The notes beneath the pieces are model-generated. The model worked only from the letters and a program-made list of their open reading frames with translations. It was not told where the DNA came from and ran no database searches. From Pannonibacter phragmitetus DSM 14782 (GTDB lineage Bacteria > Pseudomonadota > Alphaproteobacteria > Rhizobiales > Stappiaceae), in the NCBI RefSeq assembly GCF_000382365.1, contig NZ_KB908217.1, positions 248,001-312,000 of the forward strand: a stretch of DNA of 64,000 nucleotides, read 5' to 3'. The position numbers and the translations under genes were made by a program. Position 1 is the first letter of the stretch; each line of letters opens with the position of its first letter. Positions 1-18,687 of this stretch are shown in pieces.

Positions 1-327
1 CGGGAGTTGTCGAAACTCTACGCTGAGCGCGAGCCGCTGCTTAAGCCGGTCGCGAAAATGCGAAGAGAAATCAAAATTCTAGAGACGGCACAGGAGACCC
101 GGCAAGCAGCACATGACACAGCCCGCCGGACCGAGCTTGTCCGTCTGCAAGGCGAGCTCGCCTTGCTGCGCGACGCCCGCGCGGCTCTGGCCGCTGACCC
201 GGCGATTGCCCAGGGCGGCGGAAAAGCCCTAGCAGATGCCGCGCGGCGTCACCAGCGGGAACGTGAGCTTGAGCAGCAGCGCGATGCAGATCGCCAGTCC
301 TTCCGAAGCCCGACCCTTCGGAGGTGA
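1..327 (+). CDS. C-terminal part of an unrecognised coiled-coil protein
   Basis: The reading frame is open from the first base of the window to a TGA at 325-327, so this is probably the 3' end of a gene that starts upstream. A TTG at position 7 is the first possible start inside the window, but nothing favours it. The visible 108 residues are very rich in Arg, Glu, Gln and Ala (for example RRHQRERELEQQRDADR), which predicts a long charged helix or coiled coil. No catalytic motif is visible. Such tails occur in relaxases and other plasmid or island proteins, but that is a guess. The neighbouring genes are small unknowns, consistent with accessory DNA. Confidence 0.5.
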   Translation, partial: RELSKLYAEREPLLKPVAKMRREIKILETAQETRQAAHDTARRTELVRLQGELALLRDARAALAADPAIAQGGGKALADAARRHQRERELEQQRDADRQSFRSPTLRR

Positions 328-588: not shown

Positions 589-832
589 ACAGAGAGGGAG
601 TGACTTATGCCAGACGAGCGCGGTGAAGAGATCCGGACAAGATCCGTCGACGCCGCTCGACGCCGGATAAGACGGCGCCGCTCATGCCGTGACCGCGCCC
701 GGATGGCCGTCCTCATCCGCCGCCGGCGCGACCCAGGACGCAAACTTTGGGCGATCATATTGAGCGTAGTGCTCAGTCTTGCGCTCAGCACCACGCCCCC
801 GCCACCGCTAATTTTTGCAAGGAGAAAAGAGG

Positions 833-1189
833 ATGGCAAAAGATTACAGCCGAGCGTCGATGTCGAGGCTCGTGAAAGACTGCACGTCCGCGAGAAACAG
901 CCGGAGAGGCTATCTGGAACATCCGTCGACCGCCGAGATCTTCCGTCGTTTGCCGATCGACTTGCGGCTCTGGTACGCGAAAATTATGTACGAGATCAGC
1001 GACCCTCTTGCACTTCGCGGAGGCCCGATCAACGCCCGCGAAGACGACTATTTTGAGCTCTGGCGCGCAAAAAGGGATCGCTATCATCCGGAGACACACC
1101 CGAACTATCGACCGGACAACCGGAAGCGCGATGAAGACGACGATGACGAAGGCGACGGTGGCTCTCCGGTATCTCCTCCTGGTCCGTGA
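833..1189 (+). CDS. Hypothetical protein with acidic C-terminal tail
   Basis: This encodes a 118-residue protein of unknown function. The ATG at 833 (MAKDYSRAS) follows AAGGAG at 819-824 with normal spacing, so I chose it over an in-frame ATG at 815. The first 40 residues are basic. The middle carries aromatic residues (LWYAKIMYEISDP, DDYFELWRAKR), suggesting a small folded core. The end is a low-complexity acidic run (EDDDDEGDGG) followed by a Pro/Ser tail. A different-frame open frame from 607 overlaps its first two thirds. I prefer this one for its residue composition and ribosome site. It may share a transcript with the zinc-ribbon gene at 397. Confidence 0.5.
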   Translation: MAKDYSRASMSRLVKDCTSARNSRRGYLEHPSTAEIFRRLPIDLRLWYAKIMYEISDPLALRGGPINAREDDYFELWRAKRDRYHPETHPNYRPDNRKRDEDDDDEGDGGSPVSPPGP

Positions 1190-1311: not shown

Positions 1312-1755
1312 CTACCCAATTGTTCCTTGACCGCACGACAGACAAACGACGCTAGATTGCGCTGGAGGCTTTTCATTATCAGCGGCATCAAGCCTATCCG
1401 CTGCTTCAAGATGAGCATACGTGATGTCAATATTTTGCTGATCAAGATCACCAACAGAATTATCAGAGAATCCGTAAACTTCATCCAACTCTTGAATGGC
1501 ATGTATGAGAGCAGTCTCTTGGCGCTCTAAATCCTCGATTTTATCGAGAGAATCAAAGTAATCACTGATTACAAAGTAGGCAAGTCCGTACTCGTCTTTT
1601 GACAAAGACTCGCGCTTAACATTCGTTACATCGATCCTAGCGAGTAGCGTGAGAGCGCTCCTGAGTGAATTTGCAGTACCGCGAACAGCATATGCTTCAC
1701 GCTGAAGGTACTGAAGTTCAACTCTGAATTCGGTTTTATATGCATCATAGCTCAT
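1312..1755 (-). CDS. Hypothetical protein, last gene of a five-gene unknown operon
   Basis: This encodes a 147-residue, mostly helical, acidic protein with no recognised domain. Features are a Tyr/Leu/Glu-rich helical first half (VELQYLQREAYAVRGTANSL), a second helix pair (SLDKIEDLERQETALIHAIQEL), and a C-terminal CLSCG pair that could contribute to metal binding. The ATG at 1755 has AAAGAG about nine bases upstream; another ATG at 1764 lacks a spaced ribosome site. It begins 13 bases after the stop of the 53-residue gene and is probably co-transcribed with the four genes upstream. The coding sequence is visibly more AT-rich than the core genes of the window, which suggests transfer. Confidence 0.65.
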   Translation of the reverse strand: MSYDAYKTEFRVELQYLQREAYAVRGTANSLRSALTLLARIDVTNVKRESLSKDEYGLAYFVISDYFDSLDKIEDLERQETALIHAIQELDEVYGFSDNSVGDLDQQNIDITYAHLEAADRLDAADNEKPPAQSSVVCLSCGQGTIG

Positions 1756-1768
1756 TCGACACATCTCT

Positions 1769-1930
1769 TTAGCTTTTCATCTCTTTTATTTCTTCTTCGG
1801 GATGCAGACCCGCTTTCCCAGCCTCGGCGAGGACGGACCATTGATCGATCATCGCTTGAACCTCTTCTGGGGTCGGCCTTAGTGCCTCGAAATAGGCGTT
1901 TATCACGTCGTCTACTGTCGGCTTTTTCAT
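1769..1930 (-). CDS. 53-residue hypothetical protein
   Basis: This short frame runs from ATG (1928-1930) to TAA (1769-1771) and encodes 53 residues. The start has a good GGGAG ribosome site about seven bases upstream and overlaps the stop of the preceding gene as ATGA (1927-1930), the usual sign of translational coupling. The sequence reads as two amphipathic helices: TVDDVINAYFEALRPTPEEV, then QAMIDQWSVLAEAGKAG, then a Lys/Glu tail ending EEIKEMKS. It has no Cys, no membrane segment and no recognised family. Its size and amphipathic character fit a partner or regulator subunit for a neighbouring protein, but this is inference. Confidence 0.65.
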   Translation of the reverse strand: MKKPTVDDVINAYFEALRPTPEEVQAMIDQWSVLAEAGKAGLHPEEEIKEMKS

Positions 1931-2229
1931 GTCGATCTCCCGCAAATCGTGACGTCCGACGTCACACCATGTTGCCTGAGGTGAACCGCGCTTTCCGCAG
2001 CCCGGCGGGCATCGTCGGCACTGTCCTCAATGCCGACCGCAAGGGTCTTCACGAACCCGTCTTCACCGGGGCCGTCGAGCATCCAGATCCATCTCCGGCC
2101 ACCTGGATAATCTCGAAGTCGCTCGACCCAGAGCTCGTAGATTCCAGAATCGGCGGAATAGAAATCTGGGCCACCAGGACCGGAGAGAGCTGCCGGGCGG
2201 GGAACACCCGGCGTCCAACTGGGTTTCAT
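1927..2229 (-). CDS. Hypothetical protein, operon member
   Basis: This encodes a 100-residue protein of unknown family. The start ATG at 2229 overlaps the stop of the upstream gene as ATGA (2226-2229), and its own stop overlaps the next start the same way, so it is translationally coupled on both sides. A Pro/Gly-rich N-terminus is followed by an aromatic strand-like core (IYELWVERLRDYPGGRRWIWMLDGPG) and an Ala/Glu helix (DSADDARRAAESAVHLRQHG). A small alpha/beta domain is plausible. It has no signal peptide and no obvious active-site motif. The tight packing argues that it works with its neighbours. Confidence 0.65.
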   Translation of the reverse strand: MKPSWTPGVPRPAALSGPGGPDFYSADSGIYELWVERLRDYPGGRRWIWMLDGPGEDGFVKTLAVGIEDSADDARRAAESAVHLRQHGVTSDVTICGRST

Positions 2230-2594
2230 CGATCGTCTGCCTCACTGCTCTCTGGAGGCCTTCTGAACGTTCGATCAATTAGCACTGAAAGTTCGAGGCT
2301 TTTTTTGCGCAAATAGCGGTAGTTAGTTCTGCCGTGCCAATCTGCGAACTTCCGACCTTCCGGAAGAAACTTGGCAATTAAGGGGCCATCCCAGTTTTCC
2401 CGCATTCCGTCATAGTTGAGTTCGCTATGATTTATTTCGGAACTCAGTTTGAGTTTTTGCCCCGGATTTGGGAGTCGGCCTTCAATACGCTCGAATATAC
2501 GGATGAACTCGGCGGGAAGATCCTCGTTGAGGTTTTGAAGATTGTTGATCGCCTGCCTAATTTGATTGAGTAGTTCTACTATCTCTTCGTCCAT
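2226..2594 (-). CDS. Hypothetical protein, operon member
   Basis: This encodes a 122-residue soluble protein, unrecognised. I place the start at the ATG at 2594 (MDEEIVELLNQIRQAINN), which follows a TGGAG site. The frame stays open upstream to 2714, but that extension is Arg/Pro-rich and overlaps the neighbouring gene in another frame, so it is unlikely to be coding. The N-terminal 45 residues are strongly helical with Asn and Glu. The C-terminal half is mixed and basic (WDGPLIAKFLPEGRKFADWHGRTNYRYLRKK). The stop overlaps the next start by four bases. Base composition is lower in GC than the chromosomal core genes nearby. Confidence 0.65.
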   Translation of the reverse strand: MDEEIVELLNQIRQAINNLQNLNEDLPAEFIRIFERIEGRLPNPGQKLKLSSEINHSELNYDGMRENWDGPLIAKFLPEGRKFADWHGRTNYRYLRKKSLELSVLIDRTFRRPPESSEADDR

Positions 2595-2653
2595 GGGACA
2601 TTCACTCCAGTGTCCTGAGGGAGCTGGAAACCCGACTCCCAGCTGTCGAGGGA

Positions 2654-2995
2654 TCAAGCAACGTCTTGGACGTTCGCGAGGCCTGCCTCGCTGTAGATCA
2701 ATTTCGCGAGCCATTCTTGACCGAAGAACTCAATGACCCCGGCCGCGTCACTTACAACGGCGGCTTGCCGGGTGTTGCGTTCCCCCGCCCAGGCCGTGCA
2801 ATTTTCGATCACACAAACGAAGTTTCCGGCGGCAGTTCGGTATAGCTCGAGCTCATCCCAGTTGCCGGTCTGACCGCTGTAGAGCCTGCTCTGGCGGTCT
2901 TGGCTGGATTCAACGGACGCAATCAACTCTCCCTGAAACCGCAAGTCCGGTCCGTCGTCCCGCTTGATGAGATATTCCCTAAAATCTGCACTCAT
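2654..2995 (-). CDS. Hypothetical protein, first gene of the five-gene operon
   Basis: This encodes a 113-residue protein, first in the minus-strand operon, with a perfect AGGAGG upstream of the ATG at 2995. The pattern of short strands with aromatic and acidic residues (YLIKRDDGPDLRFQGELIASV, WDELELYRTAAGNFVCVIE) followed by a helix near FFGQEWLAKLIYSEAGL suggests a compact alpha/beta domain. I cannot name a family. A TTGACA on the minus strand near 3074-3079, in the AT-rich stretch upstream, could belong to its promoter, but the -10 is weak. There are 59 bases to the next gene, which still allows one transcript. Confidence 0.65.
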   Translation of the reverse strand: MSADFREYLIKRDDGPDLRFQGELIASVESSQDRQSRLYSGQTGNWDELELYRTAAGNFVCVIENCTAWAGERNTRQAAVVSDAAGVIEFFGQEWLAKLIYSEAGLANVQDVA

Positions 2996-3141
2996 GAAGC
3001 CTCCTGTGCTTTCGAGTTCGTGTATTCGTCGATAAATTCGACCTTCTTATGGTTTTTCGACCAGATCAAAATGTCAATCAAAAAATAATTGTTGACATAA
3101 ATTTTTTTTAGAAAGGCATTTTAATAAAATTTCTTCTCTGC

Positions 3142-3287
3142 GAATCCTTTGGAACTACATGAAGGATTCAAGGATTCTGCCTTTAAGGATTCGAATACAT
3201 TTAAAGGATTCGATTTAACTTCACGAAGGACTCGGTGCGCGGCTTGCGCCCGCTAAGGGCATGGCGCAAGGACTCGTTCAAGGACTC
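3142..3287. repeat. Cluster of eight AAGGA(T/C)TC repeats in an AT-rich intergenic region
   Basis: The 681 bases between the operon and hipA hold no convincing gene. Inside lie eight copies of an 8-bp word: inverted at 3142-3149, then direct AAGGATTC at 3162, 3170, 3185 and 3204, and AAGGACTC at 3226, 3268 and 3280. The copies at 3162 and 3170 are exactly adjacent. Between the sixth and seventh copies lies a perfect inverted repeat, CTTGCGCC at 3243-3250 with GGCGCAAG at 3263-3270. Flanking DNA (3085-3140) is strongly AT-rich. Repeated short words next to an AT-rich tract resemble an iteron array or a multi-site operator; which one cannot be told from sequence alone. Confidence 0.6.
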
Positions 3288-3601
3288 GAGCGCTCGCGAA
3301 CCCGCCGACAGGGATTCAGAAAGTTGACAAAATGGGGTGGAGCGTACACACAAAGGTGCACGTCGGATCATCCGGCGCCGTTCCGGGTTTCGGGCCGTTC
3401 TGAAAAAATAAATGAAATCAATTTATTGCGGGAAGAGGCCCTAGAACTCCCTCCGGGCCCACCATTTTCAAATTCCATGACTGACCAGCCAGCTTTTCTG
3501 ATGAAGCCTCTTGGATGAGCGCTGGCTTGCCCATGTTGCCAATCCTTGAAGCCGCTATGCGGCGGGTTCGTGGCTGTCTTCATGGATCACAGCCCTATTG
3601 G

Positions 3602-3655
3602 CGTTTATATAACCCATTATGATGGGTTGAATAAACTCAAATAATGCATTATTTG
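3602..3655. promoter_or_regulatory. Two palindromic operators upstream of the hipA-hipB pair
   Basis: Two dyads lie just before hipA. The first has arms AACCCAT (3611-3617) and ATGGGTT (3622-3628) around TATG, with outer arms GTTTAT (3602-3607) and ATAAAC (3631-3636). The second is a perfect 18-bp palindrome, CAAATAATGCATTATTTG, at 3638-3655, ending 21 bases before the start codon. HipB-type antitoxins are known to repress their own operons by binding such dyads, so these are the likely autoregulatory sites. Confidence 0.55.
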
Positions 3656-3676
3656 AACCATTGAAGGGGTCAATTA

Positions 3677-4999
3677 ATGCAGCTGACGCTCCAAACTCAT
3701 TTTGATGGCGGGTGGCATGGCGCCGCCATGCTGGAACTCAAGGACGGCGAGGGCGGTTTCCTGGGGGCGTCGATCGTCGATTACGATCTCGACTATTTCG
3801 TCACCGTCGCATCCGCGGACTTTTCTGCTGGAAAAACGGTCCGGGACCATCGCGCCTTATCAGTCCGTTACCCCGTCGATCTCGAAAATCGATACAGCCG
3901 CAGCTGGCCGCCCTTCCTCTTGGATCTTATGCCCCAGGGGCATGCACGGCGACAGCTTGCTGGCCATCTCGGTCTTCCTGAGGGCTCGCGGGCTTCCGAT
4001 TTGCCGCTGCTTCTGCGATCGGCAACGGGCGGCATAGGCAATATCCGGATCAGGGAAGCGGCGGACGCAGAAACGGAACGGCTACGCGGTGTAGAGCGCC
4101 AAGGTGTAACAGAGGCGGAAATCCTTGAGCGCTCGGATCGTTTCATGGAAGTTGCCGATCGCTTCGGAATGCTCGCCTCCGGCTCAAGCGGCCTGCAAGG
4201 CGAATGGCCGAAGGTTGCGATGACGCAGGCGAATGATGGCCTCTACTATCCTGACAGCTTCGTGGGGGATGATGAGGCCGTACGCCATGTCATCGTCAAG
4301 CTGGTTCGCAGCAACGAGCCTGCGGACCGCCTCATTCTTGAAGGCGAAGCCCTCTATTCGCGGATCGCTCAAGCGATTGGCCTGACTGTCAGCGAACCTT
4401 CGACCTATTCTGAAGGCGTCCTGATCATTCCCCGTTTCGACCGGAAGAAGAAAGAAGGCGGCGGCACTGTCCGGCTAGGGCAAGAAAGCCTCGTATCTGC
4501 GATCGGCGTTGCCGATTTCGGTCATGTCGGCACGCACGAGACCTATATCGGTGTTCTGCGCCAATTTTCGGCCGATCCCTTCGCGGACATTGTTGAATAC
4601 CTGAAGCGCGATATCGCCAATCTGGCGCTCGGCAATCCCGACAATCATGGCCGGAACTCGGCTCTCAGCAAGCATCAGGACGGCACGATCCGCCTGTCTC
4701 CGCTGTTTGACTTCGCACCCATGCGGCTCGCAAAGGAGGGGATCGTTCGCTCCACCCGCTGGGCCATGATGCGGGACGTTGGCCGCGATCATCTTCCCGA
4801 CTGGAAGCGCATTTGCGCTGAACTGATGCCAGATTCTGCTGAGCAGAAAGCGCTGGCAGCTATGCTTGCCGAGTTTGCCGAACTCCTGCGGCAGGCTCCC
4901 GCCATGGCGAAAGAGCTGGGGGCGGCTTCGGACATTCTGGACCGTGCGATGGGGCGCTGTATCGAAATCACCGATAGCGTGCTGGTGGCGTGTCAGTGA
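3677..4999 (+). CDS. HipA-family serine/threonine kinase toxin
   Basis: This encodes a 440-residue HipA-family kinase, the normal length. In known systems HipA phosphorylates glutamyl-tRNA synthetase or another target and induces growth arrest. The N-terminal subdomain reads PPFLLDLMPQGHARRQL near residue 80. The phosphate loop lies around SGSSGLQGEWPK (residues 166-177), not the E. coli form AGAQEKT. The catalytic loop NPDNHGRN and the metal-binding LFDFAPM are both intact near residues 318 and 341, so it should be active. The N-terminal region recalls the YjjJ/HipH branch; I am unsure of the subfamily. It precedes its HTH partner by 17 bases, which is the reverse of the classical hipB-hipA order. 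Confidence 0.85.
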   Translation: MQLTLQTHFDGGWHGAAMLELKDGEGGFLGASIVDYDLDYFVTVASADFSAGKTVRDHRALSVRYPVDLENRYSRSWPPFLLDLMPQGHARRQLAGHLGLPEGSRASDLPLLLRSATGGIGNIRIREAADAETERLRGVERQGVTEAEILERSDRFMEVADRFGMLASGSSGLQGEWPKVAMTQANDGLYYPDSFVGDDEAVRHVIVKLVRSNEPADRLILEGEALYSRIAQAIGLTVSEPSTYSEGVLIIPRFDRKKKEGGGTVRLGQESLVSAIGVADFGHVGTHETYIGVLRQFSADPFADIVEYLKRDIANLALGNPDNHGRNSALSKHQDGTIRLSPLFDFAPMRLAKEGIVRSTRWAMMRDVGRDHLPDWKRICAELMPDSAEQKALAAMLAEFAELLRQAPAMAKELGAASDILDRAMGRCIEITDSVLVACQ

Positions 5000-5016
5000 T
5001 GGCGAAGGACTGATAG

Positions 5017-5340
5017 ATGGCTAGATGGAAGAAGCCCACGAAAGAACAAGTCCTCGAGAACCGGCGCATATTGGCAGAACGCGCCCGAACCGGGGAGTTG
5101 AGGCTGCCCGGCGCTGTGGCCGAAATCCGCAAGGGCTTTGGTTTTACTCAAGAGGAGTTTGCCAGGATGCTTGGTTTGACCAGACGCCAGATCGCTGAAA
5201 TAGAAGCTGGCACAGCAAACCCGACGCTGGAGACACTGGAAAAGATCGGGCGCCTGTTTGGGTTCGAGGTTGGTTTCGTGCCGAAGAATGCCCATGTGGA
5301 GCGGGCACCTAAACACCTAGATCCTTTGCACCCTGAATGA
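5017..5340 (+). CDS. XRE-family HTH antitoxin, HipB-like
   Basis: This encodes a 107-residue DNA-binding protein with an XRE/Cro helix-turn-helix at about residues 35-85 (FTQEEFARMLGLTRRQIAEIEAG, then a NPTLETLEKIGRLFGFEVGF helix). It lies 17 bases after hipA with GAAGGA upstream and is very likely the antitoxin and autorepressor of that kinase, acting on the dyads at 3602-3655. The N-terminal 30 residues are basic and helical (KKPTKEQVLENRRILAERAR), an extension that could contact the toxin. Its last 32 bases overlap the convergent unknown gene. Assignment as a HipB partner rests on context and the HTH fold. Confidence 0.8.
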   Translation: MARWKKPTKEQVLENRRILAERARTGELRLPGAVAEIRKGFGFTQEEFARMLGLTRRQIAEIEAGTANPTLETLEKIGRLFGFEVGFVPKNAHVERAPKHLDPLHPE

Positions 5341-6132: not shown

Positions 6133-7131
6133 TCACTTCTTGCCGAAGTTCGCTCCGAGGCGCATCTGGATGTAGTCGTGGGCGGTCATCGGTTCGTATT
6201 TGCCTTCCGGCCCGGCCAGCACGGTGTCCATGTTGGCCTGTGCGAAATAGGCCATGGAGTAGCGCGGGCCCAGATATTCGCCGGGCTTGGGCATGCGCAC
6301 CCGGTGCAGGTTGGACAGGAGCTTGTCGTCTGACCAGCGCATCAGCATGTCGCCGATGTTGCAGGTGATCACCCCTTCCAGTGGCGGCACGTCGGTCCAG
6401 GCGATGGCGCGGCCCATGCTGTCCTTGCCGGGGCAGACCTGCAGGCCGCCTTGACCAGCCTTCTGGTGCAGCAGGGTGAGGCAGTCGAAGTCCGTATGGG
6501 CGCCTGCCCGCCAGAACTTGAAGTCCTCCGGTTTGGCGCCTTCCATGCCGAGATAATGGATCAGGCGCAGGGTGGACTGGTATTCGGCCCGGTCGGGATC
6601 ATGACCATCCGTGAAGAAGCCCGGGCGGAAGTTCAGGCGGCCTGCAAAACAGTCCAGCACCTTCATGGCCAGCGACCAGTTGTGGCGCTCGAAGGCGAGC
6701 ATGATTTCCTTGAAGCCGTTCAGCTCCTCTCCGGTGGGCCAGAGCTCGCGCATGCGCGGCAGGGTGATCTGGTAGCTTTCCTTGTGGTCCGGAGTGCCGG
6801 TGGAGGGGCGTACCTGCGCCTTGTATTCCCAGCCGGAGTTGGTGCCGGGCCGGAGCGGATACTTTCCCTTCACCTCTGCCGGGAGATCGAAAAAGGCTTC
6901 GGAAAGGGTGAAGGCCTCGTCAATAAGCGCCTGCGGAATGCCATGCCCCGTCAGCTGGAAGAAACCGATGCCGGTGGCTGCATCCCACAAGGCATCTGCT
7001 ATCTCTTCCTTGCGGTTGAAGTAGTCCGACATGTCCACGCGGGGAATGTCGCGCTCCACTTCCTCGCCATAGCCGCCGAAACCGGTTTCCTTGTTCAGTT
7101 CGGCAAGGCCGTAAGTTTGTGCCGTTGTCAT
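6133..7131 (-). CDS. Isopenicillin-N-synthase-family Fe(II)/2-oxoglutarate dioxygenase
   Basis: This encodes a 332-residue non-haem iron oxygenase with the two-domain IPNS layout: an N-terminal DIOX_N region (residues 28-140, with FFQLTGHGIP) and a C-terminal 2OG-FeII domain. The iron triad is visible as H212 and D214 (AGAHTDFD) and H276 (SNLHRVRMP), with the 2-oxoglutarate-binding R290 in GPRYSM. The start at 7131 is chosen because AAGGAG lies eight bases upstream. The upstream genes encode a base-type ABC importer and two deaminases, so the substrate may be a purine or pyrimidine. Thymine 7-hydroxylase is a known IPNS-family precedent in fungi. The specific reaction is inference; the fold and cofactors are not in doubt. 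Confidence 0.85.
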   Translation of the reverse strand: MTTAQTYGLAELNKETGFGGYGEEVERDIPRVDMSDYFNRKEEIADALWDAATGIGFFQLTGHGIPQALIDEAFTLSEAFFDLPAEVKGKYPLRPGTNSGWEYKAQVRPSTGTPDHKESYQITLPRMRELWPTGEELNGFKEIMLAFERHNWSLAMKVLDCFAGRLNFRPGFFTDGHDPDRAEYQSTLRLIHYLGMEGAKPEDFKFWRAGAHTDFDCLTLLHQKAGQGGLQVCPGKDSMGRAIAWTDVPPLEGVITCNIGDMLMRWSDDKLLSNLHRVRMPKPGEYLGPRYSMAYFAQANMDTVLAGPEGKYEPMTAHDYIQMRLGANFGKK

Positions 7132-7234
7132 GCTGTAGTCTCCTTTGAGATTGAGGAGCAATGACCCACGCCGGGATGGCGCTGACAGCTTCTACTCCGG
7201 GGTAATCCTGTTCTCTCTCCCGGCGGGAGAGGGA

Positions 7235-11955: not shown

Positions 11956-12858
11956 ATGTCCGCATTCTCGCGTGAAATCAGATCCTTCATCGTGGTGTCC
12001 CAGTCGGATTCCATCCGCGCGGCTGCCGAGCGGCTGAATATTTCTGCGCCCGCGCTGGGCCGGCAGATGCTGATCCTTGAACGCAGCTATGGCGCGCCGC
12101 TGCTGGTGCGCAGCACGAGCGGGGTTGCGCTCACGGCCGCAGGCGAGGAACTGCGCAATCAGGCACTGCGCTGGATGGAAGCGGACACCAAGTTCAGTCA
12201 GCACCTTCAGCAGTCGAAGCGGGCGATGGATCTGCGCCTGCGCATGGGGGTGATGGAGGGGCTGGTGCCAACACTCGTGCATCCGCTGATGGACCGTCTG
12301 GAGGCGATCTTCGGCGCGGTCGAGCTGGAACTGACGGTCGGCACCACGCGGGACATCATAGACAGAGCCGAGGCGCTGGATCTGGATCTGATCGTCGCCT
12401 TCAACATGCCCCGGCTGTCCCGCCTCGCCGTGGTGCAGAGCGAGGAATATCATCTGGGCGTCGCCTATGCCCCCGGTTCCGGCCCGGCAGGGGAGGGGCC
12501 GGTTTCCCTGTCCGAGGCGCTGCAATGGCCGCTGTGCCTGCCCAGTGCCGCGCTGTCCATGCATACCCGGCTCTTGGCCGAAATCCTGAGCGTGCGCGTC
12601 AATCCGCGTGTCAGGTTCAACAGCAATTCCATCGGAGCATTGCTGAACATGCTCCGGCGCGGCAAAGGGATCGGCTTTCTCACCTGGATCGACGTCTGCG
12701 CCGATGTCGAAGCCGGCAACCTTGTCTTCCGCCCGCTTGCCAGCCGAAGGCTGACCGAAACCCTCAGCGTCACCATCTGCCGTGGCAACAGCCTTGGCGA
12801 TGCGACCGGTCCCGTGCTCGCCGAAATCAGCAGTTTGCTGGCCGGGTTGGGGAAGTGA
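11956..12858 (+). CDS. LysR-family transcriptional regulator of the nucleobase cluster
   Basis: This encodes a 300-residue LysR regulator. The N-terminal winged HTH (residues 5-65) has SDSIRAAAERLNISAPALGRQMLILER, and the effector domain follows from about residue 90. It is divergent from the deaminase-transporter operon, the usual arrangement for a LysR activator of an adjacent catabolic pathway, and a T-N11-A box lies between. I chose ATG 11956 (MSAFSREIRSF) because it places the HTH at the normal distance from the N-terminus. An upstream in-frame TTG at 11908 would add 16 residues that overlap the candidate operator. The inducer is unknown. Confidence 0.85.
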   Translation: MSAFSREIRSFIVVSQSDSIRAAAERLNISAPALGRQMLILERSYGAPLLVRSTSGVALTAAGEELRNQALRWMEADTKFSQHLQQSKRAMDLRLRMGVMEGLVPTLVHPLMDRLEAIFGAVELELTVGTTRDIIDRAEALDLDLIVAFNMPRLSRLAVVQSEEYHLGVAYAPGSGPAGEGPVSLSEALQWPLCLPSAALSMHTRLLAEILSVRVNPRVRFNSNSIGALLNMLRRGKGIGFLTWIDVCADVEAGNLVFRPLASRRLTETLSVTICRGNSLGDATGPVLAEISSLLAGLGK

Positions 12859-18375: not shown

Positions 18376-18687
18376 TTTCCTCCGCCTGTGCATCCCCTCC
18401 GTACCGTCCCGGCCTTGTGCCGGGACCTGTTAGGGTTTGCCTGCTTGTGACCTTGCGAGCGTGATCAGATGCCCTGTCGCGCTGTGGTGCTCTCCGGATT
18501 TTCGGAGGTTCCGTGGCGTCCGGGAGAACTCCGGCTCGCGTTTCGCGCCGCGGGCTTGATTGCCTGCCCCATCGGGTTCACCAACCGCCATTGCCCCGGC
18601 CCGCTGCATGGCGTAAAAGGGCGGCCAGTTTCGATCAATTGTCGATCAGATTCCCGGCACAATTCCAAAACGGAGATGCGAGGCCCC
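18376..18687. other. Non-coding leader region before ettA
   Basis: No gene is supported here. A hairpin GTCCCGGC/GCCGGGAC lies near 18406-18426, probably the ruined end of the repeat array. The ettA promoter must be in this stretch or inside the repeat; I see no convincing -35/-10 pair. Confidence 0.4.

Follow-up and report, generated by a model that had tools for sequence, protein, structure and literature searches.

A conserved AAGGAYTC array as a putative multi-site operator in tRNA-targeting integrative mobilizable elements of the Stappiaceae

All eight copies of the word AAGGAYTC in the window (the whole 64,000-base stretch of DNA analysed here) lie in 146 bp just within the right-hand end of a probable integrative mobilizable element, and the sites recur with nearly fixed spacing in related elements. 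The array probably serves to dock a protein controlling element genes. Judged from sequence, we put at roughly 0.55 the probability that it is a multi-site operator belonging to a Stappiaceae family of integrative mobilizable elements that target tRNA genes, at which a protein binding several sites would control a divergent operon. The array follows the mobilization backbone of these elements and not Rep or Int. The work defines a conserved, spaced operator-like array in an element family of which no description was found in the open-licence literature.

The AAGGAYTC array

The eight exact sites start at 3142 on the minus strand and at 3162, 3170, 3185, 3204, 3226, 3268 and 3280 on the plus strand (Table 1), so that the word count over the 64 kb confirms the first-pass annotation, which had reported eight copies, seven on the same strand, in 146 bp. 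Shuffling the whole window 100 times gives a mean of 3.04 copies and at most seven, spread over all 64 kb. Outside the arrays the exact word occurs ten times in 206,298 bases (ten stretches), a post hoc background in which some bases are counted twice because the window and stretch L025 overlap.

Two accompanying features fared less evenly. The dyad CTTGCGCC (3243-3250) / GGCGCAAG (3263-3270) between two array sites is perfect, as claimed, but R. aquae has no fold matching it; with a matching fold not kept in all relatives, the dyad as a structure is probably incidental. The AT-rich neighbourhood is also real, with a GC content of 0.41 at 3001-3300 where 60 of the 79 overlapping 300-base windows in the first 12 kb reach 0.55 or more, but an equally low stretch at 1351-1800 (GC 0.42-0.43) means that the array flank is not the sole AT-rich place in that region. 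Rfam has no match over the array itself and two weak ones close to the AT-rich tract (best E 0.08), neither of which reaches the gathering score. The reverse word CGARTCC resembles a tRNA T-loop.

Table 1. Coordinates of the array, its neighbours and related conserved segments (window positions unless a stretch is named).
Feature	Position	Strand	Remarks
MobA/VirD2-type relaxase gene, 3′ end	1..327	+	PF03432, E 1.7e-7; gene starts before the window (L025 13196-15328)
124-aa protein	815..1189	+	relatives in all five elements
Three small genes (150, 100, 122 aa)	1312..2594	-	downstream of 113-aa gene; function unassigned
113-aa gene	2654..2995	-	first gene reading away from array; in 4/5 elements
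Leader hairpin GTCGA-N5-TCGAC	3028..3042		GTCGN...NCGAC-type hairpin at same place in 5/5 copies
Possible -35 of operon promoter, TTGACA	3072..3077	-	read by eye
AT-rich tract	3080..3140		contains TTGTTGACAT (3089-3098), one mismatch off palindrome TTGTNNACAA
Eight-site AAGGAYTC array	3142..3287	+	first site on minus strand; each site encloses GANTC
Ninth, imperfect site AGGGATTC	3310..3317	+	distance kept, 30 or 29 bp
Candidate integrase arm site GAGCGTACAC	3340..3349		left edge of att-side segment; recurs beside attL (L025 1930)
att-side segment	3345..3447		common to R. aquae, not the C20 copy (C20 homology ends at 3344)
attR, 18-bp copy of tRNA-Met 3′ end	3448..3465	+
mobC-upstream conserved segment	L024 about 18400-18600	-
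mobC-upstream conserved segment	L025 about 12650-12760
mobC-upstream conserved segment	L003 about 3050-3190
rep leader copies	L025 10640-10875; L026 7150-7390; L032 10668-10910; L027 2610-2862

Five elements with conserved sites and spacing

Five copies of the array were found in four Stappiaceae genomes, corresponding to about three independent lineages. The window genome has a second copy on another contig (C20), 87% identical over 315 bases. A 24-base array word matches three genome contigs, all of Roseibium (family Stappiaceae): R. aquae, R. polysiphoniae and an uncultured Roseibium. A protein scan of genome contigs found no relative. With a profile of the 113-aa protein, matches are present in 3 of 87 genomes of the family, at four loci that all carry the array, and in 6 of 397 genomes of the order, two within the family and four, weaker, outside it; the latter four have no exact array word in the 3.3 kb examined. 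The uncultured Roseibium has a different first gene in place of the 113-aa gene and keeps both the array and the leader hairpin.

A search for three exact sites spaced 10-40 bp apart matched 2 of the 397 genomes in the order, always within these elements, and thus revealed no helper carrying such an array; the reversed version of the pattern, run as a control, matched 3 of 397, so that a single hit carries little weight. The five loci of distant relaxase relatives (28-35% identity) have no such cluster. In PLSDB a distant blastn search returned no record covering 80% of the array query among the matches listed (20 of 35, and 30 of 50, the latter with E about 1). Distant blastn also did not find the array in phages. 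Several matches were set aside as chance: those in Sinorhizobium (E 1, in the AT-rich part of the query), five exact viral-contig matches to a 19-bp word, with no more than two exact 8-bp sites apiece, and five matches of 22-51 bases in four other genomes in the DNA search of the order (E 2e-4 to 7e-4), with at most one exact site per locus.

In a five-way alignment, five anchored sites are spaced 22, 42 (43 in C20), 12 and 30 (29 in two copies) bp apart, a variation of at most 1 bp; we infer that these distances approximate whole helical turns. Four of the sites have 28 of 32 columns invariant versus 17 of 52 in the DNA between them (Fisher P 1e-6, with copies that are related sequences and not independent). 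The array lies upstream of the same operon position in each copy. It thus behaves, in keeping with the operator-like array first suggested, like a multi-site protein-binding array whose sites and spacing are kept in five copies.

The three Roseibium copies have TTGACT and TATACT/TACACT/TATAAT 19 bp apart between the array and the first gene (read, unscored), and the window copy has no match to this TTGACT plus TATACT-type word pair; a sigma-70 scan of 2600-3700 found 0 promoter-like sites, leaving the window operon without a passing promoter.

The carrier elements and their exchangeable modules

The window element is probably of the integrative mobilizable type and spans ~16.6 kb, from a tRNA-Met gene to 3465. 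Its gene order is integrase, cytosine methylase, histidine-kinase-like, response-receiver, Vsr, Rep, MobC, relaxase, small genes, 113-aa gene, array and attR. Mating-pair genes were judged absent from reading the ORF lists alone. That the array lies in an integrated mobile element is therefore borne out, with attL and attR, integrase, MobC, relaxase and Rep all found; the description of this element as a remnant is too strong for what the sequence shows, because the element retains att repeats as well as open frames for int, mobC, relaxase and rep. Direct att repeats at a tRNA 3′ end are 18 bp long in the window (tRNA-Met), 21 bp in C20 (tRNA-Gln) and 49 bp in R. aquae (a different CAT tRNA). 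The uncultured Roseibium has one 23-bp tRNA-Gln-type att copy, and the ends of the R. polysiphoniae element were not found.

The methylase, HEF_HK/HATPase, Response_reg_2 and Vsr proteins of the window element (L025 3738-10431; the methylase is of the C5 type) look like a defence cluster. In R. polysiphoniae a frame downstream of the array (L030 12350-13306, minus strand), presumably a YifB/ComM relative, breaks off near its Walker A region, and its other half was not found in the 43 kb searched.

MobC, the relaxase and the 124-aa protein are present in all five elements; the 124-aa protein belongs to no family in Pfam, PHROGs or NCBIfam. The array is kept across att types: one tRNA-Met in the window, another CAT tRNA in R. 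aquae, and tRNA-Gln in C20 and the uncultured Roseibium. The window and C20 integrases are 28% identical over 195 aa; a 173-aa stretch in R. polysiphoniae matches the window integrase at 87% identity, and the R. aquae integrase is of the Arm-DNA-bind_3 type with a different N-terminal domain. The window Rep has a Rep_1 match below the Pfam cut-off (E 4e-4) and matched 48 plasmid records, 19 of the 20 among the matches listed being annotated as rep or replication protein. Another Rep, of 471 aa and with a winged helix, is common to C20, R. aquae and R. polysiphoniae and has no match in the window element (tblastn, E 1e-4); five of the seven records of its plasmid relatives are named replication initiation proteins. 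Finding one array under different integrases, att types and Reps argues against both Rep iterons and integrase arm sites.

The DNA to the right of the array also differs among copies. Window 3264-3455 recurs in R. aquae at 83%, and the R. aquae copy of 3345-3455 ends in a partial window-type core immediately after the stop codon of int; the present att repeats of R. aquae lie on the other side of int, and the partial core would be left over from an exchange of ends. C20 and the uncultured Roseibium have a different right-hand segment in common, leading to a tRNA-Gln core. Modules exchanged on their own can in this way be told apart: integrase with att, Rep, and mobilization plus array.

A shared hairpin-rich leader of ~200 bp precedes the two dissimilar rep genes. 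Of its 50 predicted pairs, four have two-sided change and the covariation term is slightly unfavourable (+1.19); the C20 copy, the sole copy searched, has no Rfam match up to E 1. It is possibly a copy-control RNA that has outlived Rep exchange.

Alternative functions of the array

The array could instead consist of P-arm sites for an excisionase or accessory protein beside attP, which we consider unlikely. The position of the array, next to attR and distant from int, resembles that of the P arm in phage lambda; the last exact site lies 161 bp from the att core in the window and 195 bp from it in C20, and R. aquae has motif copies on both sides of att, including one exact copy on the far side. 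However, repeats of a lambda-type arm are specific to an integrase, and this array is common to dissimilar integrases and different att types. Better candidates for arm sites are other words, repeated to either side of each core (GAGCGTACAC; CCCCCACA; GTCGGTAC, with two copies each side), and no Xis/AlpA-like family was found among the small proteins scanned, which cover part of the small frames.

Somewhat less probable again is an iteron reading, in which the sites would belong to a vegetative replication origin used by the excised element and its own Rep would bind them. Phased repeats beside AT-rich DNA do look like an origin, the elements encode Reps (Rep_1-like in the window, the 471-aa type in three others), and an iteron oriV is described for the mobilizable island SGI1 in the cited part of PMC7433901. 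However, the same array lies under two Reps with no detectable similarity at tblastn E 1e-4, and rep is 5.6-11.2 kb away in the integrated form (four elements with rep placed), or 2.9 kb in the C20 circle. The word that we take to be the DnaA box has 0 exact matches in the five copies and a single one-mismatch match in one of them. The 8-bp units are short compared with the 17 bp of SGI1, whose oriV adjoins rep as this array does not (PMC7433901, in the part cited), and no PLSDB record among the matches listed covers 80% of the array query. With neither a cognate Rep travelling with the repeats nor an exact adjacent DnaA box found, the RepA-type iterons proposed earlier are not supported, and the operator remains the better reading.

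It is improbable that the array is part of an oriT or a single-strand promoter of the leading region. The leader hairpin in all five copies and the position of the array at the edge of the mobilization block would suit such a role, but array DNA folds no differently from shuffled sequence (z -1.1 to +1.5, five copies), and the better oriT candidate is the stretch immediately preceding mobC, which is conserved in an alignment of four of the five elements (CTGGCAAGGGG ... CCCGTTGACCCCCACC). Least plausible is a chance or relic repeat with no function, which would fit the lack of an identified binder among the proteins scanned and of an array in distant relatives, but not the fact that, across the five copies in four genomes, sites and spacing have been kept and the intervening DNA has diverged.

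The operator and its candidate binders

As a multi-site operator, the array would be bound by one protein at several AAGGAYTC sites on about one helix face, and the bound protein would control the divergent small-gene operon (the 113-aa gene and its followers). The array could serve int as well in the excised state, in which it would lie upstream of that gene: by arithmetic, through attP, 272 bp upstream in the window circle and 299 bp in that of C20. R. aquae has a second cluster between att and int (L024 11186-11334), with four exact copies, one near copy and a TTGTTGACAA palindrome; four exact copies in 149 bp have a Poisson P of 1e-10 against the outside-array background (post hoc). From this cluster and the circle geometry of the window and C20, all three elements with a complete int placed have an array upstream of both int and the operon.

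Candidate binders are MobC, the activator of a helper element, or a host regulator; the binding itself, the direction of control and the identity of the binder are all predictions. MobC, with an NCBIfam VirD1/TraJ hint far below cut-off (E 0.02-0.03), is possibly DNA-binding. No regulator family was found among the small window proteins scanned (six in Pfam, ten in PHROGs and ten in NCBIfam), and the only DNA-binding hints in the scans come from MobC and from a winged helix in the 471-aa Rep, a protein missing from the window element. The 113-aa protein was considered as a regulator and rejected as not a clear DNA binder: its model is moderate (pLDDT 76, strands and helices), the best PDB fold match has E 0.31, and an NCBIfam EXLDI match (E 0.007) is below cut-off.

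For other mobilizable elements, activators from a helper are described as switching the int and RDF genes (PMC5704250, in the section cited). SGI1/MGI-type elements (AcaCD, SetCD) are likewise integrated with their own mobilization genes and, in SGI1, their own Rep, and in the cited portions of PMC7433901 and PMC5704250 their int, RDF and rep genes are under helper regulators, whereas no helper or regulator was found here. The present arrays differ in having 5-8 AAGGAYTC sites, each with a GANTC, and in being alphaproteobacterial.

GANTC sites and CcrM

All nine array sites contain GANTC, the target of the cell-cycle methylase CcrM, so that 9 of the 64 GANTC in the window are in less than 200 bp. 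The window as a whole is depleted, with 64 in 64 kb versus 271 ± 15 in first-order Markov copies, and the nine per 200-bp stretch at the array compare with a maximum of seven in 200 Markov copies; seven loci of distant relatives have at most three per 200 bp. The host genome encodes a CcrM relative (best PDB match 6pbd, E 1.6e-166) and has a GcrA match, with a model that also matches Sulfolobus among the controls. A GANTC cluster in a host with CcrM is what a CcrM control region would have. A promoter activated by GcrA and CcrM on the Caulobacter model would have the extended GcrA word YGAKTCK (PMC7987155, in the part cited), for which there are 0 matches on either strand of the five array copies; as far as that part of PMC7987155 goes, Brevundimonas has no such preference.

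Control of the array by CcrM methylation would be possible. More specifically, and only tentatively, a regulator might read AAGGAYTC in one GANTC methylation state, with CcrM tying expression of the element, perhaps also excision and mobilization, to host replication. Dam sites tie some enterobacterial elements to host replication. Should the embedded GANTC matter, they would connect the alphaproteobacterial cell cycle with horizontal transfer in a way open to direct testing. CcrM is active late in the Caulobacter cell cycle (PMC6090056, in the part cited). Clusters of CcrM sites are also described in the control regions of repABC origins and promoters, on secondary replicons of Alphaproteobacteria (PMC6090056 and PMC11514494, in the sections cited); in contrast, no repABC is seen here, the GANTC is inside a fixed 8-bp word with kept spacing, and YGAKTCK is absent. 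At MucR-occluded hypomethylated promoters, including some on a megaplasmid, a DNA-binding protein competes with CcrM at GANTC (PMC5172544, in the portion cited).

Genes beyond attR

HipAB genes occupy 3677-5340, outside attR, with a HipB-like HTH protein at 5017-5340. Because this protein lies outside the element and two perfect palindromes stand directly before hipA, HipB was rejected as an obvious binder of the array. The palindromes, at 3611-3628 and 3638-3655 (AACCCAT-TATG-ATGGGTT and CAAATAATGCATTATTTG), are perhaps HipB operators. Further right, a xanthine riboswitch (NMT1, RF03054, 53.9 bits) at 7151-7202 on the minus strand is directly upstream of a 2OG-Fe(II) oxygenase gene (6133-7131).
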